A stretch of 64,000 nucleotides of DNA, taken from NCBI RefSeq assembly GCF_014764445.1, contig NZ_CP061721.1, positions 3,844,001-3,908,000 on the forward strand, in the 5' to 3' direction. The notes below the pieces were generated by a model. The model did not search any database and had not been told where the DNA came from. It saw only the letters and a list, made by a program, of their open reading frames with translations. The stretch is from Pseudarthrobacter sp. BIM B-2242. Lineage in GTDB: Bacteria; Actinomycetota; Actinomycetes; Actinomycetales; Micrococcaceae. A program made the translations under genes and the position numbers. Each line of letters opens with the position of its first letter. Position 1 is the first letter of the stretch. Positions 24,016-45,722 of this stretch are shown in pieces.

Positions 24016-24084
24016 TCCGGATCCAGCTTCAGGAAAGCCACGAACCACGGACATGAACTAAAGCTGGAAACGAACATCCTCAAA

Positions 24085-24128: not shown

Positions 24129-24155
24129 TACCCAACCCAATCCTGTAGCGAGAGT

Positions 24156-24821: not shown

Positions 24822-24835
24822 GGGATGATCCCCCA

Positions 24836-24952: not shown

Positions 24953-24966
24953 GGACGCGACACAGC

Positions 24967-25021: not shown

Positions 25022-25078
25022 CATCGTGAAACTGGCCACCCGCCGTCGGGCGCTGCAAGCGCAGCCAAAGGATCCGTC

Positions 25079-25824: not shown

Positions 25825-25850
25825 GCTTCACGCTGGATCGTTCCAGCGGT

Positions 25851-26438: not shown

Positions 26439-26779
26439 GGCTCACTCTCCAGTCTCCCGTTTCGGCCCGACAGGGACACTTCCTTAAAGACTATTGCGTG
26501 AGCGCCCAAAAAAGGTCCAAGCCCACTGCGCAGGCTACGGGGAAGGGATTGCTTTCTGGCCGGCGCAGGCCCTGGCCCCCATGAAGGACCAGTGGCAGAA
26601 CCTGCCGATACCGGGCACCCGTCTACGCGCGCATGGTCACCGTTTACGGCCCAATCCGGACGGCGCCGAATCGCAGTCGTTCCGATACTCCGAAGTCTGA
26701 GCCACGGCAGATGCAGAAACGAACACGGTGGGCGATGAAATCGCCCACCGTGTTCGTTTGTGGCATCCGCAGGCTCCTC
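26439..26779. other. Gap between the TetR gene and BCCT gene 1
   Basis: These 341 bases hold the TetR promoter region and, at 26717-26759, a strong terminator. A frame of about 68 codons at 26494-26700 has no ribosome site or recognisable product. I see no operator with confidence. Confidence 0.5.
26717..26759 (-). terminator. Strong hairpin terminator after BCCT gene 1
   Basis: A perfect 19-bp inverted repeat (26717-26735 with 26741-26759, 5-base loop) lies 20 bases past the BCCT stop, with A/T-rich outer ends on both strands. It should terminate the BCCT transcript. Confidence 0.85.
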
Positions 26780-28876: not shown

Positions 28877-29200
28877 AGGTCCAACTCCAATTCTTGGTCT
28901 CTGCTGCGTGAACGCAGCACATCATGATGGTGTTCGCGGCCTTTTGCTGGTCAGTCAGGTAGGGGTCCCATTGCAGGAGACCTCGGATTTTTCGGCAGGG
29001 AGCAGCCGCCGGCAGATGCCTTAAGGCACAGGCGGGGGGCCACTTTCCTGCTTTTTCGAGGAGCTCCGGCAACGGGACGCCGGCCGGAACGTCCAATCTG
29101 ATGCCGCTACGGGCCAGGTTCACAGCGAACCGTTGGCCCTCGTCGATTTCGGCCATGCCGAAGGCTTATGTATGCAGCGGGCGGACTGGCCTGCTGAGAT
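28862..29200 (-). pseudogene. Remnant of the N-demethylase reductase ferredoxin domain
   Basis: Translation in shifting frames resembles the C terminus of the reductase at 19796-20782: AFGMAEIDEGQRFAVNLARS and GIRLDVPAGVPLPELLEKAG, then, after the first cysteine region is garbled, DPYLTDQQKAANTIMMCC and a frame change into SRDQELELDL-stop. At least two frameshifts and loss of the CRKGICGEC motif make it non-functional. The last 24 bases, including the TTGA junction, are identical to the junction at 20762-20785. It lies between cupin copy 2 and BCCT gene 1 and is the scar of a duplicated demethylase operon. Confidence 0.85.
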
Positions 29201-29342
29201 CCCGGATGAGCGGGAGGACGACGCGGAGGACCGGGCTGATCTTCGAGGGGGGTCAGCGCCCTGAAGGTGGAATGGGGCAACTCCGCCGATTCCCCATTCG
29301 GACGCCACCGGTTTTAGCGGCCCGCGCCGGTGGGACGCGGGC

Positions 29343-29725
29343 CGCATGGTCGGTCCTTACGGGTTGAAGGTGCGGTCGCCGGCGAAGAACCCCAGGCCGT
29401 ACTCGGGGGTCTCGAACTTCACGGTGGTGCCCTTGGGGAAGAACAGCACGTCGCGTTCCTTGGCGTGTGTGACTTCGCCGGTGCTCTGGTCGGTGAGGAT
29501 GAATTCGCCCTTGATGACAACCTTCATCTCGTCGTAGGTGTAGGTGTAGATCAGCGGCTCGGACGCCTTCAGCTCGAAGAAGCCGGCGCACATGACCGAG
29601 CCCTCCGGGTTGTGCAGCGAGTCGCCGATCGCGGAGATCGTGCCGGGCTCGTTCATCGACGGCAGGCCGATGAAGCCGTTTTCGACCTTTTGGATGGATC
29701 CGGCCTTGGTCAGTGATCCTACGAG
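29343..29725 (-). repeat. 383-bp inverted repeat, copy 2
   Basis: It is the reverse complement of 18939-19321 at equal length with no difference found by eye. It covers cupin codon 5 to 14 bases beyond the stop. Two such inverted copies could recombine and flip the 10 kb between them. Confidence 0.85.
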
Positions 29726-29737
29726 GGTGGTTTCCAT
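29357..29737 (-). CDS. EutQ-like cupin protein, copy 2
   Basis: The 126-residue protein differs from copy 1 only at residue 4 (Thr for Ala). The first 12 bases and the region upstream are different, apart from a similar TAGGAGACA ribosome site. It is now the first gene before the reductase remnant and BCCT gene 1. The promoter region carries a CRP/GlxR-type site (29935-29948) and an IclR-type site (29974-29987), unlike copy 1, which has only the former. So the same protein would be made both under amine-type control and under the control of the neighbouring IclR regulator. Confidence 0.8.
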   Translation of the reverse strand: METTLVGSLTKAGSIQKVENGFIGLPSMNEPGTISAIGDSLHNPEGSVMCAGFFELKASEPLIYTYTYDEMKVVIKGEFILTDQSTGEVTHAKERDVLFFPKGTTVKFETPEYGLGFFAGDRTFNP

Positions 29738-30142: not shown

Positions 30143-31065
30143 TCAGCCCAGGATCCAGGCTGCTCCCAGGAGCAGGGGTACCGCGAGAAGCGTCGTAAGC
30201 ACAGCTGCGGACTGGGCTATTTTCTGGGCGACACCGTACCGGACTGCATACAGGACCACATTCTGACCCGTGGGAAGGATGGCGCAGGCCACAACGACGA
30301 AGGTGCCGAAGGGGTCGAGGTGTAAAACGAAAGCGGCCAGCAGCCAGGCCAGAAGGGGCTGGATGCCGGACTTGAGCAGCACAGCCAGGAGCGTCGGCAC
30401 CCGGTCGCCGGCGCTTTGCCCCACGGCGAGTCCGTTCAGGGACATACCGAAAATGATCAGCATCAGGGGAACGGTCAGTTGCGCGACCAGCCTCATGGGG
30501 TCCAAGAGCAGGTCAGGTACCTGCACTCCGGACGCACTGACGAGAATACCCAGCACGGCCGCCACCGTCACCGGGTTGCGCAGCGGGATGGAGAGCATGT
30601 GCCCGAGTGACACCTTTTTCCTGGCCGGATCGGTGAGATCAAGGATGGTCAGTGCCACCGGCGTCACAACGGCCAACTGGAAGAGCATGATCGGCGCCAC
30701 AAAGTGGCGCTTCCAAGGATGTACAGCGAGAGCGGGACGCCAAGGTTCGTGGAATTCACTATCCCCGTGGCCAGAGCCCCGATGGTGGTGCGGCGAACTC
30801 CCCAGCGGCCGATCGCCCCGATGACGGCGAACAGGATCATGACGGCAGCTGCCGTTACCACCGAGATCAGGCCTGTCGGGCTGAGAACCTCCGAGATGTG
30901 GCGTGAGGCGATCATGGAAAACATCAGGCTGGGTAACCCGACCAGGAACGTCAACGTGGACAGTACCTTTGTCCCCTGCGGACCCAAGGCATTCGTCTTG
31001 CCTAGGACGTACCCCACCAGCAAGACGGCGCCCACGACGAAGAAGCCCTTTAGCACTCCGTCCAA
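30143..31065 (-). pseudogene. AEC-family (auxin efflux carrier-like) transporter, frameshifted
   Basis: Two overlapping frames together encode a full carrier of about 305 residues. The first (31065-30664, TTG start with GAGGGG before it) gives the N-terminal half to GVPLSLYILGSA; the second (30700-30143) gives VAPIMLFQLAVVTPVALTIL and on to the C terminus. The break lies near 30700-30712, where one missing base would explain the shift. Each half is well conserved (NSTNLGVPLSLYI, LPTGQNVVLYAVRYG), so the lesion is recent or a sequencing error. AEC carriers export or import organic acids such as malate or malonate. It follows the small PWxGLYxE gene. Confidence 0.85.
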
Positions 31066-31252: not shown

Positions 31253-31507
31253 TCAGTCGCCATACATCAGGCTGGCGAGAAACCTCTCCAACTCCGAATC
31301 CGCGGGCAGGGCGCTGGCCGCGGCGCTGTCCTGGGACTCCTCGATTTCGAGGTAAAGCCCTTCCCAGGGAGCCGCAGTGATTCCAGCACTTCCGCCGGCG
31401 GCCGCGGCTTCCGTATGCGCAGGCGCCTGCACGGGCTGCGTGCCCCAGTGGCTCGCAGCCGGGCGGCGCAGGAAGGCGGCAGAAAAAGTGCGCGGGACGA
31501 TGGTCAT
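31253..31507 (-). CDS. Small protein with PWxGLYxE motif, long form
   Basis: The 84-residue protein starts MTIVPRTFSAAFLRRPAASH with a basic, hydrophobic N-terminal part and ends in an acidic tail (LPADSELERFLASLMYGD). In the middle, PWEGLYLEIEE matches PWAGLYVEK of the 56-residue protein at 45390-45560. An AGAGGAAG ribosome site stands before the ATG at 31505-31507, and 51 bases upstream of it lies an IclR-type operator followed by a CRP/GlxR-type site, so it is surely expressed. It heads the unit with the AEC carrier. I do not recognise the family; a transporter accessory peptide is one guess. Confidence 0.7.
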   Translation of the reverse strand: MTIVPRTFSAAFLRRPAASHWGTQPVQAPAHTEAAAAGGSAGITAAPWEGLYLEIEESQDSAAASALPADSELERFLASLMYGD

Positions 31508-31557
31508 GATGGCTTCCTCTCTGAAGCATTCGGGGCAAACTGCTGAAGATCAATAAA

Positions 31558-31572
31558 TGAACGCCACGTTCA
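31558..31572. promoter_or_regulatory. IclR-type operator upstream of the 84-residue gene
   Basis: TGAACGCCACGTTCA has perfect TGAAC/GTTCA arms and a 5-base spacer. It lies 51 bases before the start of the minus-strand 84-residue gene and 22 bases from the CRP/GlxR-type site. Confidence 0.65.
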
Positions 31573-31593
31573 CTCTCTGAACATAGAAACAGC

Positions 31594-31652: not shown

Positions 31653-32507
31653 TCAGTCCCGCTGGTGCATCCGGTGGCGCATCTCCCCCACGCCCCGGAC
31701 GTAGCTCACAAGTTCATCCCCGTCATGCAGGAAGCGTTGGGGAACCCGGCCCGCTCCCACTCCCGGCGGCGTACCGGTGAAGATGACGTCGCCGGGAAGC
31801 AAGGGCGTGACAGCGGAAAGCCGGGCGATGATTTCAGGAACCGGAAAGACCATATCCACTGTGTTTCCCGCCTGCACAGGTTCCCCGTTGATGGCACAGC
31901 CGAGTTCGATTGCGTCAGGGTTTTCAAACTCATCCGGAGTTACCAGCAACGGTCCCATGGGGCCGAAGCCGGGGTACGATTTCGCCAGACTGTATTGCGG
32001 CGCAGGTCCCGCGGACTGCCTTGTCCGCTCAGAGAGGTCCTGCCCGGCCGTAACGCCGGCCACGTGGCGCCATGCGTTGTCCGGGCTGATGCTCTGTCCG
32101 CCCCGTCCAATGACCACAACGAGCTCGATCTCCCAGTCGACGGTTCCCTGCGGCAGGGCTATGGCGCCGTACGGGCCGGTGAGCGCGCTGACGAACTTCG
32201 TGAAGACAGTGAGTTCCTGAGGGACTTCCAATGCTGCCTCTGCAGCGTGCGCTGCATAGTTCAGCCCGATGGCAAACACCTGGCGCGGGCGGGGAGCCGG
32301 ACTGCCGACATGACGCTGCGGCACGTCCGCCAGCGGTCGGCCGCCGTCGTCCTCCAGAGAGCCCGCGACGTCGAGAACCTCCTCCCAGCGGTCGTAGCAC
32401 TCCTGGACGCCGGGGCTGATGCGTCCGCCTGTTGCCTGCGAGACATCCACCACCATTCCGGCGTGTGTGATAAGCGACAGCCGGTCTGAGATATTGGCCA
32501 AACGCAT
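31653..32507 (-). CDS. Fumarylacetoacetate hydrolase-family protein
   Basis: The 284-residue protein has the FAH fold motifs: VFAIGLNYAAHAAEA, PYGAIALPQGTVDWEIELVVVIG with the metal-binding Glu-x-Glu, DLSERTRQ, SYPGFGPMGPLLVT and LLPGDVIFTGTPPGVGAGR. Members cleave C-C bonds or act as decarboxylase/isomerase of dicarboxylic intermediates (HpaG-type) and acylpyruvases. The ATG at 32505-32507 has AAGGAG just before it. It is the last gene of the eight-gene unit that begins with the LLM monooxygenase. With the neighbouring hydratase and aldolase it would form a lower pathway similar to that for homoprotocatechuate. Confidence 0.85.
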   Translation of the reverse strand: MRLANISDRLSLITHAGMVVDVSQATGGRISPGVQECYDRWEEVLDVAGSLEDDGGRPLADVPQRHVGSPAPRPRQVFAIGLNYAAHAAEAALEVPQELTVFTKFVSALTGPYGAIALPQGTVDWEIELVVVIGRGGQSISPDNAWRHVAGVTAGQDLSERTRQSAGPAPQYSLAKSYPGFGPMGPLLVTPDEFENPDAIELGCAINGEPVQAGNTVDMVFPVPEIIARLSAVTPLLPGDVIFTGTPPGVGAGRVPQRFLHDGDELVSYVRGVGEMRHRMHQRD

Positions 32508-32617
32508 GGGACTCCTTAGTGCTGGGCGGATGCATCGTGGAAGCGGATAGGTCGTGGAATAAGAACAGGGGCCCGGCCCCTTCCGGGGACCGGACCCCTG
32601 CGGAGGCCTTGCCTTAA

Positions 32618-33415
32618 TCAGTTGGCTGCAGCGTCTGTGACGTCGAATTCGACAGTGCCCCAGCCCTCGAATGTCCCCGTCCACCGGCCGGCTTCGTTCA
32701 TGGGGACGGCCTGCAGGCAGCTTCCCGGAAGGATGACCTGGCCGGCCTCGAACGTGACGCCGTACGCGGCGAGGCGGTTGACGAGCCAGGCGACGGCGGC
32801 AAGCGGGTTGCCGAGGATGTTTCCGGTGGAGCCGCTGATGACTTCCCGGCCGTTGAAGCGCAGGACGCCCCTGGTGTCCCGCAGGTTCAAATCCGTCACC
32901 CTGCGCGGTGTGCCGCCGAGGATGACGGCGCCGGTGGAGCCGTTGTCGGCCAGGGTGTCGCACAGCCCGATATCCCATTGCTTCACGCGGGAATCGATGA
33001 TCTCGATAGCCGGAAGGGCGAACTCGATGGCATCGATGACGTCCGCAACTGTGGTGTTGTGTCCGCCCAGAGGCTTGCGGAGCATAAATGCGGGTTCCAG
33101 TTCAACGTACGGCGCGATGAACCGGTCACGTTCGAGAGCGGTTCCCTCATAAGCAAAAGTACTGGCAAGAAGGTGTCCGTAGTCTGGCTGGTCGAGGCCA
33201 AAGGCATCCTGCATGACCTTGGCGATGTTGCCTAGCTTGTATCCGACGAGCCGGTCTCCATCTGCCAGGGCATGGTCCACATTGATCTTCTGGACCTCGA
33301 AGGCGCCGTCGGGATCCAGGCCAGGCCAGGTTTCGATCGGCGCTTCAATGGGCTGGCCCTGCCTGCGTGCTGCGCGGAGGGAGGAGGCAATGTCCTCGAG
33401 CGTAATGGTGGACAT
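32618..33415 (-). CDS. 2-keto-4-pentenoate hydratase-family enzyme
   Basis: The 265-residue protein begins MSTITLEDIASSLRAARRQG and has VGYKLGNIAKVMQDAFGLDQ, LASTFAYEGTAL, VELEPAFMLRKPLGG, AIEIIDSRVKQW and LGGTPRRVTDL, the layout of HpaH/MhpD-type hydratases that add water to 2-oxo-4-enoic acids. It lies 100 bases after the aldehyde dehydrogenase gene. The product of such a step is a 4-hydroxy-2-oxo acid, which is the substrate type of the HpcH/HpaI aldolase encoded at 39694. A few family members are decarboxylases, so the reaction is likely but not certain. Confidence 0.85.
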   Translation of the reverse strand: MSTITLEDIASSLRAARRQGQPIEAPIETWPGLDPDGAFEVQKINVDHALADGDRLVGYKLGNIAKVMQDAFGLDQPDYGHLLASTFAYEGTALERDRFIAPYVELEPAFMLRKPLGGHNTTVADVIDAIEFALPAIEIIDSRVKQWDIGLCDTLADNGSTGAVILGGTPRRVTDLNLRDTRGVLRFNGREVISGSTGNILGNPLAAVAWLVNRLAAYGVTFEAGQVILPGSCLQAVPMNEAGRWTGTFEGWGTVEFDVTDAAAN

Positions 33416-33515
33416 GTGAAGCCCTTTCAAATGGACGGTGGATTTCCGGCCCCGGACGAATGTGTTGAGGGAGTCCTGCCCGGGGCCGGAAGCTGTTGAA
33501 GTGTGTGTGCCGGCG

Positions 33516-35102
33516 TCAGTTCTGCTGCGGCTCTGCGTGGCCGTTGACCAGCCGGTGCACCTTCCAGGGATTGGCATCCTTCAGCGGCGCCGGAAGCAAC
33601 TCGTCAGGGAAGTTCTGGTACGAGACCGGCCTGAGGAACCTATCCACGGCCAAGGTTCCGACAGACGTGGTGCGGGAGTCGGACGTAGCCGGGTAGGGGC
33701 CGCCGTGAACCATGGCGTGCCCCACCTCCACTCCGGTGGGCCAGCCGTTGATGATGATCCTGCCAACCTTCCGTTCCAGGAACGGGATGAGTCTCGATGC
33801 GGCGTCATAGTCGTCGGCGTCGAGATGGAGGGAAGCCGTCAGTTGGCCTTCCAGGCGGGAAGTTGCCTCAATCAGGTCATCGGCGTCCTTGTAGCGCACA
33901 ATCAGGCTGGCCGCCCCAAAAATCTCCTCGTGGAGCGCCGCGTTGCGGGTGAAGACATCAAGGTTTGTCCCAAAGACAGCCGGGGCGGGGGCGTTTGCCG
34001 TCGTACCTGCCCGGCCCCGGGCAACCAGCTGCACATCATCGACGCCGGCAACAGAGTTGTACCCCTTATCCCACGAGGCAGCAATCCCCTGGCTGAGCAT
34101 TGTCTGGCCGGCCTGGCCGGCTACGGAGGAAGCGACGGCGGCGGCAAAACGGTCACCGGCCTCGCCCTCGGGCACGAACACCAGACCAGGCGACGTGCAC
34201 AATTGGCCCGAGCTTCCCGTCACAGAGGTGACGTACTGGGCGGCCAGGGCATCAAGATCGCCTGTGAGGGCCCCTGGCAGGACGTAGACCGGGTTGATGG
34301 AGGACATCTCCGCATAGACAGGAATGGGCTCGGGGCGTGCCGCGGCGGTGCGCATCAAAGCAGTGCCGCCGGCCCGGGACCCGGTGAATCCCACCGCTTT
34401 TATGGCGGGATCGGCAACAAGCGCCTGCCCGATGCTCGCACCGGAGCCGTAGACCAGGGAGAAAACGCCCGGGTGCAGTTCCAGGTCGCGGACGGCTTTC
34501 GCCACGGCATGCCCTACAAGCTCCGCCGTTCCCGGATGGGCATTGTGTGCCTTAACAACAACCGGGCAGCCGGCGGCGAGCGCGGAGGCGGTGTCCCCTC
34601 CCGCCACGGAGAATGCCAGCGGAAAGTTGCTGGCACCGAACACGGCCACAGGGCCCAGGGGGATCTGCCTCAGGCGGATGTCGGCGCGGGGCAGGGGTGC
34701 CCGTTCAGGGAGCGCCGGGTCTACCCGGACGCCGCGGAAGTCGCCCGTCCGGACCACGTTGGCAAAAAGGCGAAGCTGACCGACGGTGCGGGCACGTTCA
34801 CCGCGCAGACGTTCTGCTCCCAGTCCGGTCTCGGCGGAGGCACGGTTAATCAGTTCCTCGCCGACCGCGTCGATATTCTCTGCGATGGCTTCGAGGAAGC
34901 GCGCGTGGCGCTCGGGCTCCAGTGTGCTGAATGATTCGAAGGCGTCGGCGGCCGCATCTGTGGCTGCTTTCAGCTGGTCGTCGCTGACCAGCGTGTAGGC
35001 CGGCTCCAGCGCTTCGTTGGTGGCCGGGTTGATGCCGAAGGTGGAGCCGTTGGTGCCGGCCACCTCCGTCCCGGCGATGAGGGAGTTTCCGGTCAGTGTC
35101 AT
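33516..35102 (-). CDS. Aldehyde dehydrogenase of the 2,5-dioxopentanoate (alpha-ketoglutarate semialdehyde) type
   Basis: The 528-residue protein is of the ALDH superfamily and of the KGSADH-like branch: GPVAVFGASNFPLAFSVAGG, VVVKAHNAHPGTAELV, VGFTGSRAGGTALM, VYAEMSSINPVYVLPGAL with the general-base glutamate, SSGQLCTSPGLVFVPEG with the catalytic cysteine, and LHEEIFGAASLIVRY. The ATG at 35100-35102 matches the family start. It probably oxidises a semialdehyde made by the aldolase or by the flavin amine oxidase, to an acid that enters the citric acid cycle. Confidence 0.88.
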   Translation of the reverse strand: MTLTGNSLIAGTEVAGTNGSTFGINPATNEALEPAYTLVSDDQLKAATDAAADAFESFSTLEPERHARFLEAIAENIDAVGEELINRASAETGLGAERLRGERARTVGQLRLFANVVRTGDFRGVRVDPALPERAPLPRADIRLRQIPLGPVAVFGASNFPLAFSVAGGDTASALAAGCPVVVKAHNAHPGTAELVGHAVAKAVRDLELHPGVFSLVYGSGASIGQALVADPAIKAVGFTGSRAGGTALMRTAAARPEPIPVYAEMSSINPVYVLPGALTGDLDALAAQYVTSVTGSSGQLCTSPGLVFVPEGEAGDRFAAAVASSVAGQAGQTMLSQGIAASWDKGYNSVAGVDDVQLVARGRAGTTANAPAPAVFGTNLDVFTRNAALHEEIFGAASLIVRYKDADDLIEATSRLEGQLTASLHLDADDYDAASRLIPFLERKVGRIIINGWPTGVEVGHAMVHGGPYPATSDSRTTSVGTLAVDRFLRPVSYQNFPDELLPAPLKDANPWKVHRLVNGHAEPQQN

Positions 35103-35143
35103 GGTTGCGTCTCCTGGACGTAGTAAAAAGTGAATAGCTGGAC

Positions 35144-35560
35144 CTAGTTGCCTGCGCCCAGGTGCCAGATGCCGAGGGAAGAGAGAAGTTCCCGGGGGTC
35201 CCAGACCACCCATTCCTCAGCAATCTTTCCGTCCTCGAATCGAAGGAAAGACGCTCCCGTGACGGTGACGCTCCGCCCTGTGGCGGGAACGTCCATAAAA
35301 GAACCCCGGTGAGTGCCGTGGGTCTGCCAATGGATGGCTGCAGTCTCACCTTCCTCGATAATGTTCAGGATTTCCGTTGTTGTGTCCGGGAAGGCCACGT
35401 GCGTGGCTTCGATGGTCTTCCGCAGCTGCTCGACGTCTTCGGTGCCGGACTTCGAGTGGCGTACATAGCCTGGCGCGAGCAGCGCCTCGAAGACCGACAG
35501 GTCGCCGTCGCCCCAGGCGCCGTTCCAGGCTTTGAGGATCGATTCCTGCTTGGTGCTCAT
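35144..35560 (-). CDS. SnoaL-like / ester cyclase family protein
   Basis: The 138-residue protein has the NTF2-like alpha+beta fold of SnoaL-type proteins: LKAWNGAWGDGDLSVFEALLAPGYVRHS, FPDTTTEILNIIEEGETAAIHW, and FEDGKIAEEWVVWDPRELLSSLG. Members range from polyketide cyclases to small hydrolases and isomerases; the histidine/aspartate pattern does not settle which. It overlaps the flavin reductase gene upstream by 4 bases, so it is made together with it. In this operon a role in ring-opening or isomerisation of the monooxygenase product is possible. Confidence 0.78.
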   Translation of the reverse strand: MSTKQESILKAWNGAWGDGDLSVFEALLAPGYVRHSKSGTEDVEQLRKTIEATHVAFPDTTTEILNIIEEGETAAIHWQTHGTHRGSFMDVPATGRSVTVTGASFLRFEDGKIAEEWVVWDPRELLSSLGIWHLGAGN

Positions 35561-36108
35561 GATGCTGTCCTTACTGCTTCCGGTGCCGGGATTTCGATAG
35601 GAAGGTACTGGCCGAATTTGCCGCCCCGGAAAAGCAGGGCATCGCCGGTTCCTTCTTCCATGCTGGTCACTGCTCCGACCACCATGTAGTGGTCGCCCAC
35701 CACCACTTCCGCGGTGACGATGCAGTCGATATAAGCGGTGGCGCCGTCCAGGTGGGGTGTGCCAAGGGGCCCGGCAGTGCAGGGCAGGCCTTCAAACTTC
35801 TCCGGGCCCTTGCGGGAAAGGGAGCGGCAAATGCCGATCTGGTCATCCGCGAGGATGTTGGCGGTGAACTTCTGCAGCTTGCGCAGTTTCGGCCAGCTGG
35901 AGGAGGACTTGTCCACGCAGAACATCACCAGTGGAGGTTCCAGGGACAAGGACTGGAAGGTGCCCACCACCAGGCCGAGCTTCTCGTCATCGTCGTTGGT
36001 TCCTGTGATGGCTACGACGCCGGTGGGCAGCTTTCCGAGTATCTGGCGGTAGAACGCGGGGCTGATGTCCGCGGTGAGTGTATCGGCTGCTGCCGGGGTG
36101 ATGTCCAT
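35557..36108 (-). CDS. Flavin reductase family protein 1
   Basis: The 183-residue protein has the FMN-binding split-barrel fold of two-component flavin reductases: YRQILGKLPTGVVAITGTN, GLVVGTFQSLSLEPPLVMFC, SSSWPKLRKLQKFTANILAD and the C-terminal VVGDHYMVVGAVTSM. It would supply reduced FMN to the LLM monooxygenase three genes upstream. It overlaps the SnoaL gene by 4 bases. A second reductase is encoded directly before it; the two are related but clearly not copies of one another. Confidence 0.87.
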   Translation of the reverse strand: MDITPAAADTLTADISPAFYRQILGKLPTGVVAITGTNDDDEKLGLVVGTFQSLSLEPPLVMFCVDKSSSSWPKLRKLQKFTANILADDQIGICRSLSRKGPEKFEGLPCTAGPLGTPHLDGATAYIDCIVTAEVVVGDHYMVVGAVTSMEEGTGDALLFRGGKFGQYLPIEIPAPEAVRTAS

Positions 36109-36109
36109 G

Positions 36110-36649
36110 TCAATCTCCTTTGATCGATGAGGCCGGTGTGGCGCCGGGTTCGGCGAACCCGCCGAAGCGGCCGCCGTGGAAGATGAGGGGGCTGCCCTCG
36201 CCGGGGGTCATTTCCAGCACGCTGGCGATGACGATGAGATGGTCCCCGGCAACTATCTGCTGCTCGACGCGGCAGTCGAACCAGGCCAGCGAACCGTGGA
36301 TGTGCGGTGTACCCCAGAGGGACTCAGACCAGTTCACCGTGCCGAGTTTATCCGGGCCTTTGGCTGACAGTGCGCGGCAGACCTGCTGCTGGTCTTCGGC
36401 GAGCAAACTGACGCTGAACCGGTCGGCCGCGGCAATCTGCGGCCAGCTGGAGGACGTGTGCGTGACGCTGAAGGTGACCAGGGCCGGTTCCATGGACAGG
36501 GACGCGAACGTCCCAACGATCATCCCGTTCCGTGCCCCCGTGACGGGATTCGTGGAGCAGATGGCCGCTACGCCGGTGGGCAGGTGCCGCATCACGGCGC
36601 GGTAGTGGTCCGACGCGATGGGGCGGGCTTCCAGTGCCGGGGCGCTCAT
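36110..36649 (-). CDS. Flavin reductase family protein 2
   Basis: The 179-residue protein has the same fold and order of motifs as the next gene (YRAVMRHLPTGVAAICSTN, GMIVGTFASLSMEPALVTFS, SSSWPQIAAADRFSVSLLAE, VAGDHLIVIASVLEM). Its start overlaps the amine oxidase stop by 4 bases and it ends 1 base before reductase 1. Either both serve the LLM enzyme, or one has become an oxygenase-like partner. One reductase per monooxygenase is usual, so the pair is noteworthy. Confidence 0.87.
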   Translation of the reverse strand: MSAPALEARPIASDHYRAVMRHLPTGVAAICSTNPVTGARNGMIVGTFASLSMEPALVTFSVTHTSSSWPQIAAADRFSVSLLAEDQQQVCRALSAKGPDKLGTVNWSESLWGTPHIHGSLAWFDCRVEQQIVAGDHLIVIASVLEMTPGEGSPLIFHGGRFGGFAEPGATPASSIKGD

Positions 36650-37950
36650 GGCCGTACCTCCTTTAGTTCTGCGTGGATGGTGCGTCCGGCGCGGAGGGCG
36701 GACTCGATGGCGCCGTCGAAGAAGCCTGCCCAGATGTTGGCGGTGTCGCTGCTGGCGAAGTGCAGTGCGCCTTCGCTGGCCTGCTGTGCGGCATGGTACT
36801 TGGTGAGCTGGCCGGGGCGCTGGATCTGCCAGGTTTCCTCGGCGTAAGGATCTTCACCCCACTTGTGTCCGGTGACTTCGAGGACTTCCAGGTCATCCCG
36901 CCATACCCTGATGGCTTCCTTGACCTGCTCGATGTCGGTCACATCGATGCGGTTCGCATCGGCGCCGAAGCCGACCAGGACGGCGTCGTCGTCACCAATG
37001 AACTCGGTGCGGATCACGGAGAGCGGTTTGTCCTGGGCGGAGTAGGCGAAGAAGGGCTTGATCGGGCCCTTGACCCGGATCCATGCCTTGACGCCCTGGG
37101 ACGCGGTTTTTTCCCGGCTGGGGGCGAGCTTGCCCTCGGACAGGGCGGGCTGGACATCGAGTTTGTGCAGCACGTTCTGCGGCAGGGTGATGACCACCTT
37201 CGTAGCCCGGATGTCGTGGCCGGCACCGTAGGTGACGGTGGCGCCGTCGCTGTCGTGGCGGACGCTTGTCACGGGTGTGTTGAGGCGGATGTCCGCAGTG
37301 GTGTCCGCGGCGATGGCGTTGGCCAGCCCGTCGTTGCCGTTCTTCAGGCGGTAGATCGCCGAGGCCTCGTGCATCAGGTGCCAGTGGCCGGAGGATCCGG
37401 CGGTCCAGCGCAGGGCGTTGACGTAGGCGCACTGGTCCAGGGGCGCGTTGAAGTGGCCCACCCAGGCGGCCTCGTTCGCGTTCCGTTCGTCCTCGGAGAG
37501 GTCCAGCTTGTCCAGCATTTCCTGCAGGTTGTATTGGTCCACGTCGGCGAGGTTTTCCACGGTCAGGGGTGCATCGGGGCGGGGAAGCCACTTCGTGGTG
37601 TCTTCGAGCAGCCGCGTCATGCCGGGGTCGATCAGTTTCATGAAGTCGTCCAGGTTGCCGCGGCGCACCTCGTTGCCGGCCAGCCAGAAGGTTTCCTCGG
37701 AGCGCGGGCCGCGGGAGACCTCCAGGCCGTAGCTGGTCACCTCGGCCCAGACGTGGGGCTGGGTCCAGTGCAGCCAGTTGCCGCCGAGTTCGAGGTTCTG
37801 GCCCAGGCGGCGTTCGGTGTAGACGCGGCCGCCGATGCGGTCGCGGGCTTCCAGGACCACTACCTGGTGGCCCCGGTTGGTGAGTTCGCGGGCAGTGACG
37901 AGGCCTGCGAGACCGGCGCCGATGACGACGACGTCTGTTTGTTCAGTCAT
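36646..37950 (-). CDS. FAD-dependent amine oxidase (flavin monoamine oxidase family)
   Basis: The 434-residue protein begins with the dinucleotide motif VVVIGAGLAGLVTARELTNR, then LEARDRIGGRVYTE, and has ELGGNWLHW and the C-terminal FAD motif HFASSDTANIWAGFFDGAIESALRAG. It is of the family that contains putrescine oxidase, 6-hydroxynicotine oxidase and similar enzymes. It oxidises a C-N bond to an imine that hydrolyses to carbonyl plus amine. In this operon it would release ammonia or methylamine from the substrate or from its ring-opened form. It lies 35 bases after the LLM gene. Confidence 0.88.
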   Translation of the reverse strand: MTEQTDVVVIGAGLAGLVTARELTNRGHQVVVLEARDRIGGRVYTERRLGQNLELGGNWLHWTQPHVWAEVTSYGLEVSRGPRSEETFWLAGNEVRRGNLDDFMKLIDPGMTRLLEDTTKWLPRPDAPLTVENLADVDQYNLQEMLDKLDLSEDERNANEAAWVGHFNAPLDQCAYVNALRWTAGSSGHWHLMHEASAIYRLKNGNDGLANAIAADTTADIRLNTPVTSVRHDSDGATVTYGAGHDIRATKVVITLPQNVLHKLDVQPALSEGKLAPSREKTASQGVKAWIRVKGPIKPFFAYSAQDKPLSVIRTEFIGDDDAVLVGFGADANRIDVTDIEQVKEAIRVWRDDLEVLEVTGHKWGEDPYAEETWQIQRPGQLTKYHAAQQASEGALHFASSDTANIWAGFFDGAIESALRAGRTIHAELKEVRP

Positions 37951-37985
37951 GGTTGTCTCCGTTGTGATTTCTACGTCGTGAAGGG

Positions 37986-39383
37986 TCAGCGGGCCGCGGG
38001 GGCCAGCCGCGCGGTGCGGTGTTCAGTGGCGGGGTGCCCGTCCAGCGTGTACTTCTGGCCGAAGAACTTTTCGCGGAGGGTAACAGGCTCCTGGTCCTCG
38101 CCACGCGCGGGGGCAATGATGCCGTGAGCGCGGAGTTCCGGCAGGGCTAGTTCGATGAACTCTTCCCAGCCCCCGGGCTTGGTGATGTAGCTGAGGTTGA
38201 TACCGTCAATGTCGGCCTCGTCACGCCAGCGGCGCAGCTCGGCAGCGACCGTTGCCGGGGACCCGATGATCGTGGCGCCGGTGCCGCCGACAGCCAGGAA
38301 CTCGGCGATCTGACGCGGGGTCCAATCCCGGTCCGGGTCCGCCTTGGAGAACATGTCCACCATCGACTGACCCGCTTTGGTTCCAACCGACCGCAAGGGG
38401 GTATCGAGCTCGTATTCCGACATATCAATTCCGGTCCACCCGCTGAAGCGTGCCAGGATTCCATCGATCGGCGCGCTGTCCACGGCTTTCCGGTACTTCG
38501 CCTGGGCTTCTTCATCGGTGGGCGCAACCACCACGGTCAGTAGGATGACCACCTTGACGTCGCGGGGATCGCGGCCTGCATCCGCCACTGCCTGGCGCAA
38601 TTTCGCCACACTTCGCTTGGCACCCTCAACAGACGTGCTCTGAATAAAGACCGCTTCGGCGTGCTTTCCGCCAAACTCCATGCCCCTGGACGAAGAGCCG
38701 GCCTGGAACAGCACGGGAGTGCGCTGCGGAGAAGGTTCGCAGAGGTGAAAACCGGGGACCGTGAAGTGCTCTCCGGAGTGGTTGATCGAGTGCACCTTGG
38801 CGGGGTCGATGTAGGTGGCCGACTCGGCGTCCCGGACCACAGCGCCCTCTTCGAAAGAGCTTTCCCAGAGCTTGTAGACGACCTCCATGTACTCATCGGC
38901 GAGGTCGTAACGCTCTGCGGGGGTGAGCTGCTGCTGCTTTCCCAGGTTCCGGGCGGCCGCCTCGGAGTAGGAAGTGACAATGTTCCAGCCCACACGGCCG
39001 GAGGTGAGGTGGTCCAGCGAGCTGAACTTGCGGGCCAGCAGATACGGCGGCTCATACGTTGCCGAGACAGTGACCCCAAAGGTCAGGTGCTTGGTGACCG
39101 CGGCCATGCCGCTGATGAGCACCGTGGGGTCGTTGATCGGGAACTGGGCGGCGTCGCGCAGGGCGGCGTCGCCGTTACCACGGTAGACATCGTGGTAGCC
39201 GACGTTATCGGCGAAAAAGATGCCATCGAACCCGGCCTTTTCCAGCATCTGAGCGATACCGGTCCAGTACTGCAGATCCGTATAGCGGTAGCCCTGGTCG
39301 GCATCATTGCGCCAGGAGCCCGATGTCAGGTGGGCAGGTGCAAAAACATCGAAGGCAAAGAGGCTGAGAGGTTCATTTTTCAT
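37986..39383 (-). CDS. LLM-class FMNH2-dependent monooxygenase (NtaA/SnaA/DszA/DmoA family)
   Basis: The 465-residue luciferase-like protein has all landmarks of the NtaA-type group: AFDVFAPAHLTSGSWRNDAD, YTDLQYWTGIAQMLEKAGFD, FADNVGYHDVY, TSGRVGWNIVTSYSEAAARNLG, YIDPAKVHSINHSGEHFTVPG and PVLFQAGSSSRGMEFG. Known members oxygenate nitrilotriacetate, dimethyl sulfide, dibenzothiophene sulfone or N-heterocycles, using FMNH2 from a separate reductase. Two reductases follow in the operon. It is the first gene of the unit and its promoter bears an IclR-type operator. The substrate is not known; an N-heterocycle or N-substituted acid would fit the partner enzymes. Confidence 0.88.
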   Translation of the reverse strand: MKNEPLSLFAFDVFAPAHLTSGSWRNDADQGYRYTDLQYWTGIAQMLEKAGFDGIFFADNVGYHDVYRGNGDAALRDAAQFPINDPTVLISGMAAVTKHLTFGVTVSATYEPPYLLARKFSSLDHLTSGRVGWNIVTSYSEAAARNLGKQQQLTPAERYDLADEYMEVVYKLWESSFEEGAVVRDAESATYIDPAKVHSINHSGEHFTVPGFHLCEPSPQRTPVLFQAGSSSRGMEFGGKHAEAVFIQSTSVEGAKRSVAKLRQAVADAGRDPRDVKVVILLTVVVAPTDEEAQAKYRKAVDSAPIDGILARFSGWTGIDMSEYELDTPLRSVGTKAGQSMVDMFSKADPDRDWTPRQIAEFLAVGGTGATIIGSPATVAAELRRWRDEADIDGINLSYITKPGGWEEFIELALPELRAHGIIAPARGEDQEPVTLREKFFGQKYTLDGHPATEHRTARLAPAAR

Positions 39384-39448
39384 GGCAACAGTTCTTCCTT
39401 GGACTCGTGCCGAAACGTACGGACAATCCGATGTGGGTGTTCATATCT

Positions 39449-39492
39449 TGAACGCTGTGTTCAATTTAGAGTGTTGTGCACGTCACTGTCAA
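39449..39492 (-). promoter_or_regulatory. Candidate promoter and IclR-type operator of the LLM operon
   Basis: Read on the minus strand, TTGACA (39487-39492) and TAAATT (39463-39468) stand 18 bases apart as -35 and -10 boxes. The palindrome TGAACGCTGTGTTCA (39449-39463) follows directly, where a bound regulator would block initiation. The LLM ATG is 66 bases further on. Confidence 0.65.
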
Positions 39493-39544
39493 GAGGTTTA
39501 TCGCGGCGAAAGATGCCGATCTGGCCCTCCATTGACACCATGCC

Positions 39545-39558
39545 GTGACGTCTGTCAT
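39545..39558. promoter_or_regulatory. CRP/GlxR-type site between the LLM and aldolase genes
   Basis: GTGACGTCTGTCAT fits GTGA-N6-TCAY. It lies in the divergent gap and could serve the LLM operon, the aldolase gene or both. Confidence 0.55.
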
Positions 39559-39564
39559 ATTTTT

Positions 39565-39579
39565 TGAGCACCGCGTTCG
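39565..39579. promoter_or_regulatory. Degenerate IclR-type site upstream of the aldolase gene
   Basis: TGAGCACCGCGTTCG keeps 8 of 10 arm bases of the TGAAC-N5-GTTCA palindrome and has the right spacing. It is 115 bases before the aldolase start. Confidence 0.45.
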
Positions 39580-39693
39580 TTTAGGAACGTCCATCTGATT
39601 CGAGGACGGCTCCGCACCGAACTGCGCAGCAATCCCCGGCAGCCGCCCGGAGACGGCAGGCCCACACGACGTCACGCGACCCCGGAGCAAACA

Positions 39694-40488
39694 ATGAAGA
39701 TTTACGGTGACAGCGACCGCGATACCGGCCTATCAACACCACGATTGACAATCGACGACGGCGGCACCACCTTGGGCGCCTGGATCAGCTTCCGCGACCC
39801 CGCCGCTGTGGACGTCGTGGCGGCGGAGGCCTTTGACTGGATCTGCATCGACGGCCAGCACGGCGGCGCAGAAATCCATGAACTCCAGCAGTTGGTCGAG
39901 GCCGCCCACCTGTTCTCAGTGCCGTCCATGGTCCGCGTCCCCGGGCACGATCTGGGAGCTTTGGGCCGGGTCCTGGATTCGGGTGCCGGCGGCATCATCT
40001 TCCCCACCGTGGAGGATGCAGGCACAGCCCGAATATTGGTAGCGGCCTGCCGCTTCGCCCCTCGCGGCAAACGGAGCTACGGGCCAACCCGCCGCAGTCC
40101 CCGGTACCCCAAACCCACCCCGGGCAACCCGGCGGAAGACACACTCTGCATCCTGATGATTGAAACTGCAGAGGGCCTGGCCAATCTGGACAGCATCCTG
40201 GCCACACAGCCGGACGGGATTTTCGTTGGACCCTACGACCTGTCGCTCAGCCTCGGCATCACCTTGGAGGAGCTGACCGGCCAGGGCGAGGACGGGATCC
40301 TGGCCGATATTGCCCGTCGTGCCACGGCCGCCGGAGTCTCTCCGGGAATTTACACCGGGGAGGTGCCCCTCTCCGAAAAGATGCGGGCCCTCGGTTTCCG
40401 TTTTATGCCTGTCGCCTCGGATACAGGTCTGCTGGCAACGGCATCACGAAACGCCGTGTCAGCTGCCAAGCAGTTGACGGCGTACTGA
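39694..40488 (+). CDS. HpcH/HpaI-family aldolase
   Basis: The 264-residue TIM-barrel protein has TTLGAWISFRDPAAVDVVAA, FDWICIDGQHGG, a metal- and pyruvate-site MIETAEGL, and IFVGPYDLSLSLGI, all typical of class II pyruvate aldolases that split 4-hydroxy-2-oxo acids into pyruvate and an aldehyde. The invariant EHG-type motif is QHG here, a small deviation. It is transcribed divergently from the LLM operon and completes the hydratase-aldolase-dehydrogenase sequence of a lower pathway. The same family contains 2-dehydro-3-deoxyglucarate aldolases and malyl-CoA lyase relatives, so the substrate is open. Confidence 0.85.
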   Translation: MKIYGDSDRDTGLSTPRLTIDDGGTTLGAWISFRDPAAVDVVAAEAFDWICIDGQHGGAEIHELQQLVEAAHLFSVPSMVRVPGHDLGALGRVLDSGAGGIIFPTVEDAGTARILVAACRFAPRGKRSYGPTRRSPRYPKPTPGNPAEDTLCILMIETAEGLANLDSILATQPDGIFVGPYDLSLSLGITLEELTGQGEDGILADIARRATAAGVSPGIYTGEVPLSEKMRALGFRFMPVASDTGLLATASRNAVSAAKQLTAY

Positions 40489-40534
40489 CGGACGACGTAC
40501 TGGCAGGAATCAACTACGCCCCCTAAGAACTGAA

Positions 40535-40549
40535 TGAACACGGCATTCA
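40535..40549. promoter_or_regulatory. IclR-type operator in front of the IclR gene
   Basis: TGAACACGGCATTCA fits TGAAC-N5-RTTCA and lies 98 bases before the regulator start. A site in front of its own gene is what an autoregulated IclR protein would show. Confidence 0.6.
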
Positions 40550-40646
40550 ACTTCGGGACCTAAGATGGCACAAGGGTCCCTGTATGCCGTGCATCCAGTT
40601 ACGGGCAGAGGGCTCGCACCATAAGCCCCAACGAAACGGCGCAAAA

Positions 40647-41435
40647 ATGACTGACGCAGATACCGAAGAACTGACGCAGGAACCTACCGATCTGACCAAC
40701 AAATCGGTCATCAAAGCAGGCGTCCTCCTCAGGGAACTCGCCAGGCATCCGCGGGGAATCACCAATACCGAGCTTGCACAGGCCGCCGGGATGACCAGGC
40801 CCACCGCCTTCCGCCTGCTCCTGACTCTTGAGCAGATGGGCTTCGTTGACCGCGACGAGAACCTCTACAAGCTGGGCTTTGAGATCGCCCGCCTCGGCCG
40901 CCTGGCTGATCCCACCACGGGCCTGGCTGCGCGCATCCAGCCAATCCTGGATGACGTTGCTGCCGATCTCAATGAATCGGTCAGTTACGCCGTTGTTAAC
41001 GGTGATTTCGACTATGACCTCGTAGCGGAAGCCAGCAGTACCCGGATCCTCAACGTGCCGCAGCACTACGTTGGGAAAAAGTATCCCCTTCATGCCAGCG
41101 CCACCGGGAAAATCCTGCTCGCCGAGCACAGTGACGAGAAGATCGCCGAAGTACTGCCCGACGTGCTGGAAAGCTTCACGCGCCACACCATTACCCAGCG
41201 GAATGATTTGCTCCGGGAGATCCGGGACGTCAGAAAGCAGGGTTATGCCACGCTGGACAACGAACTCGAAGAGGGGCTCTTCACCGTGGGTTGCGGTGCA
41301 CGGGACGTCAAAGGACGGCTGACCGGCATCATCACGGCGAGCGGACCGGGCGAACGGCTGAGGACAGGCCGCCTGCCGGCAATTGTCGAGCGGCTGCGGC
41401 AGGCCGCCGAGGACATTTCAAAGACAGTCCTCTGA
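40647..41435 (+). CDS. IclR-family transcriptional regulator
   Basis: The 262-residue protein has an N-terminal winged helix (SVIKAGVLLRELARHPRGIT, then AGMTRPTAFRLLLTLEQMGFV) and the C-terminal IclR effector domain (YPLHASATGKILLAEHSDEK, GYATLDNELEEGLFTVGCGA). The ATG at 40647 begins the conserved part; an in-frame ATG at 40584 has no better ribosome site. It stands downstream of the aldolase gene and close to a TGAAC-N5-GTTCA site. IclR proteins bind just such palindromes, so it is the best candidate for the regulator of the eight sites scattered from 29974 to 45859. Confidence 0.88.
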   Translation: MTDADTEELTQEPTDLTNKSVIKAGVLLRELARHPRGITNTELAQAAGMTRPTAFRLLLTLEQMGFVDRDENLYKLGFEIARLGRLADPTTGLAARIQPILDDVAADLNESVSYAVVNGDFDYDLVAEASSTRILNVPQHYVGKKYPLHASATGKILLAEHSDEKIAEVLPDVLESFTRHTITQRNDLLREIRDVRKQGYATLDNELEEGLFTVGCGARDVKGRLTGIITASGPGERLRTGRLPAIVERLRQAAEDISKTVL

Positions 41436-41513: not shown

Positions 41514-41998
41514 TTAGGCACGCCCCGCGGAAGGAACCAGGATGATCTTCCCGGTTGTCTGCCGGGACTCCAAGGCCGCGTGGGCGTTCAGCTGCTGCAG
41601 GTCGAAGGGCGGCACCTGTCCGGAGGCGCCGCCGAAAGGACCAGGGGCCGCGGATCCGCAGGGAATCCAGGGAACCTTCAAAGGTATCCTTGCCGACGCC
41701 GTCATAGACGACGTCGACTCCACCGCCGCCGGTCAGCGCCCGGACGCGTCCAGGTACTTCGCTGTAATCGAGGACGTGGTGGGTACCGGCCTTGCGGGCT
41801 TGTTCCGCCTTTTCCGGCGTCGAGGTCGTGGTGATGACAACAGCGCCGCGCCGCTTCAGCATCTGGATCAGCAGCAGGCCCACTCCCCCGGCCACCTCGT
41901 CCGAAACGCCATCCGGGACCCCGCAGCCTCGACACCGGGAACGAAGGGGTAGCTCGATGCGTAAACGCCCGAGCGCTGGTACGTCTCGGAGCTCCCGT
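41514..41998 (-). pseudogene. NADPH:quinone oxidoreductase-like remnant
   Basis: Pieces of a medium-chain quinone oxidoreductase are readable in different frames: TYQRSGVYASSYPFVPGVEA near 41920-41995, AGGVGLLLIQMLKRRGAVVI to TFEGSLDSLRIRG in the middle, and FGGASGQVPPFDL, ALESRQTTGKIILVP at the end (stop at 41514). About 80 residues are missing after the first piece and about 50 before the last. It is too damaged to work. It fills the gap between the IclR gene and the MFS transporter. Confidence 0.85.
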
Positions 41999-42002
41999 CG
42001 CC

Positions 42003-43340
42003 TCAGTGTGAGTAGCCCGAAGCTGCCTGGGTCAGGGTTTTGCCCTTCGTCTCGGGAGCCAGCCACTGGGATAGCCCTGCTCCTGCCAAGGCGACAGCAG
42101 CAGCGATCAGCATGGTGGGACCTGCCCCGAGGGCCTCCATTGACATTGGCATCAGGAAGATGCCGATCCCTGCCCCGACGCGGCTGACAGCGGCCGCGAA
42201 ACCTGTCCCGATTCCCCGGATCTCGGTCGGAAGAACCTCACTCGGATAGACGCCGGTCAGCGTGGTGTACATCGCGTTGAAGAACGAGAAGACCAGGAAC
42301 AGGACGAGAACAACAGGCCCGGGCGCGCCGGCCCACAGGCCGATGATGGCGAGGACTACAGCGCAAAGCCACTGCGGCGGGACGCACAGTATGCGGCGGC
42401 CCGCCTTGTCGATCAGCAGGACCGTGACCACCACCCCGGCAAGGGCGATGGCAGAGAGCCCGACTCCGCCAGCGAGTCCGCCGCCGAGGCCGTACTGGTT
42501 CAAGACGCTGTCGGCGAACGTGGCGATAGCAAAGTAGGGTGTCACAGCGCAGAACCAGAAGGCCGAGATGAACAACGTGGACCGCCAGTGCTGCTTGGAG
42601 AACAGCATGCCGAAACTGCCCTTCCGAACGTCCTCGTGCTGGACGTCGTCAAGCGCGTCATCAGGCATGTATTTTTCGGCGAGGGCGCGGGCCTCATCCT
42701 TGCGGCCCACGCTCCACAGCCAGCGTGGCGATTCCGGCAAGCCAAGCCGGGCGAGGAACAAGGCCACCGCGATAAACGTGCTGGTACCGAGGATAAAGTG
42801 CCAACTTAGGTCGGTGTATGCAGCCAGCAGATGGCCGATCAGGAACGCGACCATAAAGCCGGCGTACCAGGCGATCTCCATGGCGCCCATGAGGCGACCG
42901 CGCAGGTGGGTGGCCGAGAACTCAGCCATCAGGGGCCATCCCACCGCGTATTCGCAGCCGATTGCAATGCCCATCAGCAGCCGCACCACCAAAAGCCACA
43001 GGGGTGAGTCGATGAAGAACTGCATGCCTGACGCGATCGCAAACAGTCCGATGTCGAACATAAAGATTGGCTTCCGGCCCCACTTGTCGGCCGCCCAGCC
43101 ACCCAGAGGCGAGCCGATGAGGATGCCGATCAAGGCGGCCGCAGCGATCAGCCCCTGCCAAACCACTGAGAGCTCCAGGTCCTCTGCCATCCTCCCTGAC
43201 AACGGTCCGATGATGCCGAGGATGTAGCCGTCCAAAAACATGCCGCCGATCAGGACGGTGATCATTCTGATCATGAAGCGTTTTTTACTTGCCGCTGAGA
43301 TGACGCTCTGGCGTGCAGCTGAGTTTTTTGTTGCTGACAC
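42003..43340 (-). CDS. MFS transporter of the sugar/aromatic acid porter type
   Basis: The 445-residue protein has 12 hydrophobic segments and the MFS signatures GGWAADKWGRKPIFMFD after helix 2, MGIAIGCEYAVGWPLMAEF, GLPESPRWL and PSEVLPTEIRGIGTGFAAA in the second half. It starts with GTG at 43338-43340, only 3 bases after the BCCT stop, so the two transporters are co-transcribed behind the 56-residue PWxGLYxE gene. Substrates could be organic acids or an aromatic/heterocyclic acid connected with the LLM pathway. Confidence 0.85.
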   Translation of the reverse strand: MSATKNSAARQSVISAASKKRFMIRMITVLIGGMFLDGYILGIIGPLSGRMAEDLELSVVWQGLIAAAALIGILIGSPLGGWAADKWGRKPIFMFDIGLFAIASGMQFFIDSPLWLLVVRLLMGIAIGCEYAVGWPLMAEFSATHLRGRLMGAMEIAWYAGFMVAFLIGHLLAAYTDLSWHFILGTSTFIAVALFLARLGLPESPRWLWSVGRKDEARALAEKYMPDDALDDVQHEDVRKGSFGMLFSKQHWRSTLFISAFWFCAVTPYFAIATFADSVLNQYGLGGGLAGGVGLSAIALAGVVVTVLLIDKAGRRILCVPPQWLCAVVLAIIGLWAGAPGPVVLVLFLVFSFFNAMYTTLTGVYPSEVLPTEIRGIGTGFAAAVSRVGAGIGIFLMPMSMEALGAGPTMLIAAAVALAGAGLSQWLAPETKGKTLTQAASGYSH

Positions 43341-45389: not shown

Positions 45390-45560
45390 CTAAGCCGCGG
45401 CGGCCTTTTCCACATAAAGACCTGCCCACGGTTCGCAGGTCACCGTGCCCTGCTCGGTGAACCGGGATGGGAGGACGGAGGGAAGTGCCCGGGGGCGCAC
45501 GGGAAGCGGACGGGACGAAGGGCACAGTGCAGTGCTTAGAAAGCGGATCGCGATACTCAC
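45390..45560 (-). CDS. Small protein with PWxGLYxE motif, short form
   Basis: A 56-residue frame starts with GTG at 45558-45560, with GAGGAG 6 bases before it, and ends in CEPWAGLYVEKAAAA. The motif PWxGLYxE is shared with the 84-residue protein at 31253-31507, and both begin with a basic, hydrophobic segment (MSIAIRFLSTAL here) and a proline/arginine-rich stretch. It is 108 bases before BCCT gene 2 and 82 bases after an IclR-type operator. It is therefore the first gene of the transporter unit. Function unknown. Confidence 0.65.
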   Translation of the reverse strand: MSIAIRFLSTALCPSSRPLPVRPRALPSVLPSRFTEQGTVTCEPWAGLYVEKAAAA

Positions 45561-45641
45561 AGTGGACTCCTCAACGCTGACGAGGAACCGGGGTTCCGGA
45601 GGCTGGACATTTCGAGTGGAAGGACAATCATCGGCCTTCTT

Positions 45642-45656
45642 TGAACGCAGTGTTCA
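45642..45656. promoter_or_regulatory. IclR-type operator, nearest to the 56-residue gene
   Basis: TGAACGCAGTGTTCA has perfect arms and a 5-base spacer, 82 bases before the GTG start. Confidence 0.65.
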
Positions 45657-45722
45657 TCTTGTGAACATTCATCAAGTGTGGCGCAGCCCACTCTTTCTGG
45701 CAAGAGCAAAACCAAACGAGGA

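Follow-up and report, generated by a model that had tools for sequence, protein, structure and literature searches.

We analysed a 64,000-nt stretch of Pseudarthrobacter sp. BIM B-2242 (NZ_CP061721.1, 3,844,001 to 3,908,000, forward strand; hereafter the window), which contains a putative catabolic gene set headed by an LLM-class FMN-dependent monooxygenase gene. An earlier note had described an eight-gene operon with a divergent aldolase gene at this locus, and indeed all nine open frames were found where it put them, eight on the minus strand and the aldolase gene divergent from them, each with recognisable family domains. Two adjacent gene pairs overlap by 4 nt and the biggest intergenic gap in the set is 128 nt, so the eight minus-strand genes likely form one operon. 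Part of the start codons were picked by hand from alignments. For the FAH-fold gene, 32489 is the most likely start, because the resulting 278-aa form aligns to its nearest solved relative from residue 3; a longer open reading frame (ORF) reaching 32978 would overlap the hydratase gene. The operon, listed from its first gene, the aldolase gene and the adjacent regulator gene are as follows:

37986-39383, minus strand: LLM-class FMN-dependent monooxygenase, operon gene 1 (TIGR03860, 503.5 bits; DmoA, 6ak1, 472 bits)
36646-37950, minus strand: flavin amine oxidase of the MAO/Pnao type (PF01593 domain, MAO fold)
36110-36649, minus strand: flavin reductase 2 (PF01613, 124 bits)
35557-36108, minus strand: flavin reductase 1, paralogue of reductase 2 (PF01613, 116 bits)
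35144-35560, minus strand: SnoaL-like protein (PF07366, 99 bits)
33516-35102, minus strand: NADP-type aldehyde dehydrogenase (nearest solved chains 3v4c, 475 bits, and 1eyy, 455 bits)
32618-33415, minus strand: 2-oxo-4-enoate hydratase family protein (HpaH profile, 200.5 bits; 1sv6, 165 bits)
31653-32489, minus strand: FAH-fold hydrolase/decarboxylase, last operon gene (PF01557, 204 bits; 6v77, 298 bits)
39694-40488, plus strand: HpcH/HpaI-type pyruvate aldolase, divergent (PF03328, 86 bits; HpaI profile, 124.5 bits)
40647-41435, plus strand: IclR-family regulator (PF01614, PF09339)

The gene set is real and recurrent. A scan of genome contigs with the LLM protein gave 237 loci, of which the best 80 were kept. 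The core set consists of 35 loci chosen by their LLM protein (L017-L044, that is 28 loci, and seven from further genomes), which is 61-93% identical to that of the window; in the 52 control loci (L045-L096) it is 45-51% identical. An amine oxidase gene accompanies the LLM gene in 34 of the 35 core loci, the exception (L032) being a 3-kb contig, and no amine oxidase match was present at E 1e-8 in the control loci, several of which lie on short contigs. The other partners were counted in at least the following numbers of core loci, some of whose contigs are short: any flavin reductase in 33, an IclR homologue in 30, the aldehyde dehydrogenase in 28, a divergent MFS gene in 22, SnoaL in 19, the hydratase in 18, FAH in 11 and the aldolase in eight. 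Sequence comparison gave no assignment of the divergent MFS protein to a family function.

Pairwise identities correlate with those of the LLM protein at 0.90 for the amine oxidase (34 loci), 0.90 for the aldehyde dehydrogenase, 0.97 for the hydratase, 0.88 for reductase 1 and 0.87 for IclR, and at 0.53 for reductase 2, 0.47 for SnoaL and 0.35 for MFS, values that include host relatedness and a cross-match of the two reductase queries. In Streptomyces and some other loci, the aldehyde dehydrogenase is only 41-45% identical to that of the window. We read these patterns as suggesting that oxygenase, reductase and amine oxidase make up a constant core, to which interchangeable finishing steps are added.

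With E 1e-160 as the limit, the LLM protein has strong matches in 11 of 295 family genomes, our own included, spread over 5 of 32 genera; one of these matches shows only 55% identity, and no second genome of the window's genus is among the 11. Phylum-wide, the only genome of 396 with a match at E 1e-175 was that of the window, and none was added at E 1e-140, with about four candidates scored per listed genome. The LLM gene is present in 6 of 10 genomes of one genus (that of G038) and in 1 of 15 of another (that of G104). A plasmid search for close annotated relatives returned 349 records at E 1e-80, none reaching 60% identity. The gene set is probably accessory and horizontally moved.

The LLM protein passes TIGR03860, the NtaA/DmoA family, with 503.5 bits (cut-off 279.7). 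Among solved proteins, it is nearest to DmoA (472 bits, aligned near full length with few gaps) and LadA (404 bits), and it scores 208 bits against 3sdo, named nitrilotriacetate monooxygenase, and 107 bits against the EDTA monooxygenase 5dqp. Its designation as an NtaA-type enzyme in the earlier note thus stands at the level of the family but not of the nearest relative, and a pure NtaA/EDTA analogy is weakened by these scores. Two PF01613 flavin reductase genes, which have a direct repeat (D2) in common, lie in the same operon, and we predict that the LLM protein is an FMNH2-dependent oxygenase. Like DmoA, NtaA, EmoA and LadA, it combines membership of TIGR03860 with a flavin reductase encoded by a separate gene; unlike in that group, its gene adjoins an amine oxidase gene, as it does in all core loci except one.

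The best sequence match of this amine oxidase among solved structures is the C. ammoniagenes MAO (284 bits), and Pnao, NicA2 and 6-hydroxynicotine oxidase are among the best matches of its model. The substrates of the latter three are N-methylated amines, and the Pnao reaction frees methylamine. The window oxidase shares the fold of Pnao, NicA2 and the C. ammoniagenes MAO and is about 32-36% identical to them along almost its entire length; it differs from them in belonging to a conserved cluster with an LLM oxygenase, and no nicotine-pathway gene was recognised in the operon. The best 120 of 465 matches in a protein search carry generic or automated names, one of them 'Pseudooxynicotine oxidase'.

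A palindrome, TTGAAC-N5-GTTCAA, recurs just upstream of the LLM gene in core loci. Within the window, this candidate operator precedes several units, and the sites and the additional genes next to them are:

39448-39464: operator TTGAACGCTGTGTTCAA of the LLM operon (0 mismatches, 64 nt upstream of the LLM start)
40534-40550: operator-like site before the IclR gene (2 mismatches in the window scan)
45641-45657: operator before the small protein, BCCT2 and MFS genes (1 mismatch in the window scan)
31557-31573: weak operator-like site before the second small protein (2 mismatches to the relaxed pattern, 3 to the stricter)
45390-45560, minus strand: PWxGLY small protein, short form, starting with GTG (E 5.1e-19 in a profile search of the own genome; alignment A1)
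43344-45281, minus strand: BCCT transporter 2, BCCT2 (TIGR00842, 477 bits, cut-off 407.6)
42003-43340, minus strand: MFS transporter following BCCT2 (best NCBIfam scores 147 bits for a sugar porter, 139 for aromatic acid symport and 120 for cation transport, each short of its cut-off)
31253-31507, minus strand: PWxGLY small protein, long form (E 1.7e-7 in a profile search of the own genome)

A site with at most one mismatch lies 30-78 nt upstream of the LLM gene in 21 of the 35 core loci and at 332 and 365 nt in two more; the other 12 have none within 600 nt upstream. Nine matches to TTGAACNCNGNGTTCAA with up to three mismatches were counted in the window against 1.74 expected, a number reached by 0 of 100 shuffles. 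The relaxed palindrome (at most one mismatch) gave 44 sites in 28 loci (529,885 bases), and five control palindromes gave 0 each. In a scan of the own genome, both mismatch-free matches fell within the window (39448 and 45641); seven sites had one mismatch, one before the IclR gene and six elsewhere, against one for a reversed control pattern. The strict palindrome was found in 1 of 295 family genomes (G053), with no operon genes in the surrounding 14 kb. In relatives, the operator also lies upstream of an aldehyde dehydrogenase gene (L028), of transporter genes (L017, L028) and of two flanking genes named c10 and c9 (L018, L025), the latter encoding an enolase-superfamily protein.

The palindromic operator is thus common to several window units, as in an IclR regulon. 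The IclR protein, which scores 147 bits against the PcaR/PcaU/PobR profile (cut-off 285), may be the protein that binds it. The earlier note had placed the BCCT transporters under the same operators as the operon. This was borne out for the LLM operon, the IclR gene and BCCT2, but not for BCCT1, whose nearest site is the weak one at 31557, with a cupin gene and an apparently broken AEC gene in between.

BCCT2 passes the cut-off of the general BCCT family but reaches only 507 bits on the glycine betaine BCCT profile (NF047988), short of the cut-off of 650. It bears the motifs FHWTLHPWAMY and WTVFYWVWWMSW (HW..PW..Y-like and WW..W; putative transmembrane segments TM4 and TM8), which we take to be the betaine-binding aromatic box of BetP; BCCT1 shows Y and F variants. 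The BCCT2 gene lies downstream of the operator both in the window and in L017. Related genes occur in L017, L018 and L022, and a BCCT1-like gene in L113. Other core loci carry ProP-type genes (L017, L028), ChoXWV/ProVWX-type ABC genes (L028, L030), a GbcA-like Rieske oxygenase (L035; 414 bits, cut-off 670), a DAO-GCV_T protein (L029; best profiles sarcosine oxidase alpha, 180 bits with a cut-off of 1164, and TMAO demethylase, 178 with a cut-off of 1100) or, about 2.3 kb beyond the FAH gene, a sarcosine/N-methyltryptophan oxidase-like protein (L021; 231 and 223 bits, cut-offs 480 and 257). Counted together, betaine/choline-type transporter or N-demethylase-like genes were found in 9/35 core loci and 0/52 control loci, a comparison biased in that six of the eight counted queries come from core loci and the controls are largely from other taxa, and from which ProP matches of about 30-32% identity (3 core and 5 control loci) were dropped. 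With the window's two BCCT proteins as sole queries, the counts were 4/35 and 0/52.

Beside the island, at 22072-29737, lie a copper amine oxidase, two SugE/SMR-like proteins, a BetI-like TetR protein, BCCT1 (BetT type) and an EutQ-like cupin, that is, further amine and quaternary-ammonium genes.

Our favoured explanation, which we hold tentatively, is that these genes form a catabolic island under IclR control whose substrate is a small N-compound of the betaine class, quaternary or zwitterionic. The compound would be imported by BCCT2 and the MFS protein. The LLM monooxygenase, served by the flavin reductases, would then oxidise a carbon beside the nitrogen and thereby release an alkyl group in the form of an aldehyde, by analogy to its DmoA and NtaA relatives. 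The amine oxidase would act next on the tertiary or secondary amine, and hydrolysis of the imine would yield an amine such as methylamine and a carbonyl compound. Finally, the aldehyde dehydrogenase, joined in the loci that have them by the hydratase, the FAH-fold enzyme and the pyruvate aldolase, would convert a 2-oxo acid or semialdehyde to pyruvate and central metabolites; a 4-hydroxy-2-oxo acid or a semialdehyde would suit these finishing genes.

We infer the substrate class, each reaction and their order, and for the order there is a chemical argument. A quaternary nitrogen has no lone pair and is not oxidisable by MAO-type flavin enzymes, whereas DmoA/NtaA-like oxygenases can hydroxylate the neighbouring carbon, the alkyl group departing as an aldehyde. 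On a betaine, the oxygenase step must therefore precede the oxidase step, and this order would explain both the pairing of the two genes and the betaine-type transporter under the operator. A more specific version seems rather unlikely to hold in all its parts: a Rieske-independent module, carried as a soil-actinobacterial accessory island, in which a DmoA-like FMN oxygenase removes one alkyl group from the betaine nitrogen, an MAO-type oxidase completes the deamination and the PWxGLY family serves uptake or enzyme assembly.

Glycine betaine and proline betaine catabolism employs GbcA-type Rieske demethylases and dimethylglycine oxidases. The island would resemble it in its betaine-type transporters and in a stepwise removal of N-alkyl groups, but the window operon has no Rieske enzyme and has instead an LLM oxygenase and an MAO-type oxidase. 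Betaines of plants and microbes are sizeable soil nitrogen and carbon pools, and the betaine demethylation steps known to us use Rieske oxygenases or folate-linked or corrinoid enzymes. If our explanation is true, an LLM oxygenase acting with an MAO-type oxidase would be a new solution to betaine demethylation, and a group of unassigned LLM proteins would gain a function. No description of this gene set was found in the literature searched, which took in few subscription journals and preprints, so the negative is weak.

Could a primary or secondary amine be attacked first? The oxidase would then act on an arylalkylamine or similar amine, the aldehyde dehydrogenase would produce the acid, and the LLM enzyme would hydroxylate or cleave it. 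The C. ammoniagenes MAO as top match, the frequency of the aldehyde dehydrogenase (28/35 core loci), uptake by an MFS protein and the PcaR/PcaU/PobR profile as the nearest to the IclR protein all agree with this order. It leaves the BCCT2 unit under the operator and the betaine-linked neighbours unexplained, and we consider it unlikely.

We give a similarly low probability to ring opening of an N-heteroaromatic compound (trigonelline, homarine, pyridine carboxylates), in which ring cleavage by the LLM enzyme is followed by removal of the amine by the oxidase, and enzymes like those of the homoprotocatechuate (HPC) pathway then yield pyruvate and a semialdehyde. The lower-pathway gene types match, flavin reductases are present, and N-methylpyridinium acids would suit betaine-type uptake. 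Yet the product of trigonelline or pyridine ring cleavage needs an amide or formamide hydrolase, and no amidase or formamidase is among the operon genes, although no search for one was made in the rest of the genome; of the flanking proteins, 2 of 32 match amidohydrolase families (batch A5, locus untraced), and one of another 43 resembles phenol hydroxylase. Moreover, the LLM protein is nearest to DmoA and LadA and scores 82.6 bits on the RutA profile (cut-off 498.3), and the lower enzymes are missing in many loci that keep the oxygenase and the oxidase. The Acinetobacter trigonelline route (TgnA-E) likewise has a two-component flavin-dependent oxygenase and a semialdehyde dehydrogenase; the window operon differs in having an amine oxidase and no amide hydrolase. 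The overall interpretation of the earlier note, which combined ring opening with a quaternary or zwitterionic substrate, is partly supported.

That note had also likened the last four enzymes to the lower HPC pathway. The four families (HpaE, G, H and I) are indeed alike in the operon and its aldolase, but all four proteins miss the curated cut-offs (HpaE 114.9/638.35, HpaG C-terminal 124.2/276.4, HpaH 200.5/351.5 and HpaI 124.5/368.8 bits), and the hydratase is also under that of the 2-keto-4-pentenoate hydratase profile (195 bits, cut-off 350). As the note had remarked, there is no ring-cleaving dioxygenase: a domain search found no HpaD among the operon genes. HpaD lies elsewhere in the genome (G000:C1:159848; 449 bits, cut-off 321) in a separate HPC cluster, to which the window proteins are only 28% (aldolase), 34% (hydratase), 28% (aldehyde dehydrogenase) and 32% (FAH) identical. 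As the same genome carries its own HPC cluster, we rejected the operon as an HPC lower branch.

An amino-sugar, imino-sugar or sugar-acid route, with the dehydrogenase, aldolase and linked dehydratases forming a non-phosphorylative sugar-acid path, is very unlikely: the MFS matches are sugar-porter-like, a sugar-acid dehydratase follows the operon in L110 and c9 and c10 are paired in 7/35 core loci, but that dehydratase is found in one locus only, and c9 scores best on a profile for cis-3-hydroxyproline dehydratase (291-311 bits, cut-off 500), clearly ahead of the listed sugar-acid profiles.

The flanking survey covered 75 of 106 non-core ORFs (batches of 43 and 32), without L108, and the commonest 25 of 64 and 25 of 41 families. 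The c9 gene and c10, a medium-chain dehydrogenase gene, are paired in L018, L025, L030, L034, L035, L107 and L109, and an eighth locus has a 35% identical paralogue of c9. The nearest solved chain to c9 is 2pce (462 bits, L018 copy). For the betaine-class explanation, this linked gene gives a lead, not a result: hydroxylated proline betaines may be one candidate substrate family. The dehydratase of L110 (16677-18470) is of the IlvD/EDD type and lies about 130 nt after the operon. Behind the core of L033 (13471-18980) lie genes for a benzoylformate decarboxylase (613 bits, cut-off 493) and for proteins resembling dienelactone hydrolase and lactate/malate dehydrogenase.

The PWxGLY proteins are an undescribed small-protein family sharing the operator. 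Ten aligned sequences (A1) are 53-94 aa long, with a conserved MSxxHR-like N-terminus and a C-terminal [CS]xPWxGLY; one form bears an extra tail like LDxFLxxLMYGE. The own genome carries two convincing members of the family; they lie in the window, each just downstream of an operator-like site (1 and 2 mismatches). In the 35 core loci, an operator (at most one mismatch) was found within 450 nt of 12 of the 14 motif ORFs. At E <= 0.01 there are 156 relatives. The best 120 of these are named 'hypothetical' or 'uncharacterized', apart from one automated molybdenum-reductase name, and none has a Pfam domain; the named hosts are Arthrobacter and Pseudarthrobacter. The family is thus operator-linked and without an assigned role among the matches listed. 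Ratios of nonsynonymous to synonymous substitution rates (dN/dS) of 0.28, 0.17 and 0.25 in three pairs suggest that its genes are under purifying selection.

Two further observations concern neighbouring genes. The AEC-type (auxin efflux carrier) transporter at 30143-31065 (minus strand) appears as two overlapping ORFs in different frames, and is either a broken gene or a sequencing error. Between the IclR and MFS genes (41571-41987, minus strand) lie fragments that resemble a quinone oxidoreductase gene and are 79-91% identical to its homologue in L024, a locus of the soil relative Arthrobacter globiformis NBRC 12137; they are apparently a decayed copy of a gene found near the aldolase in several relatives.

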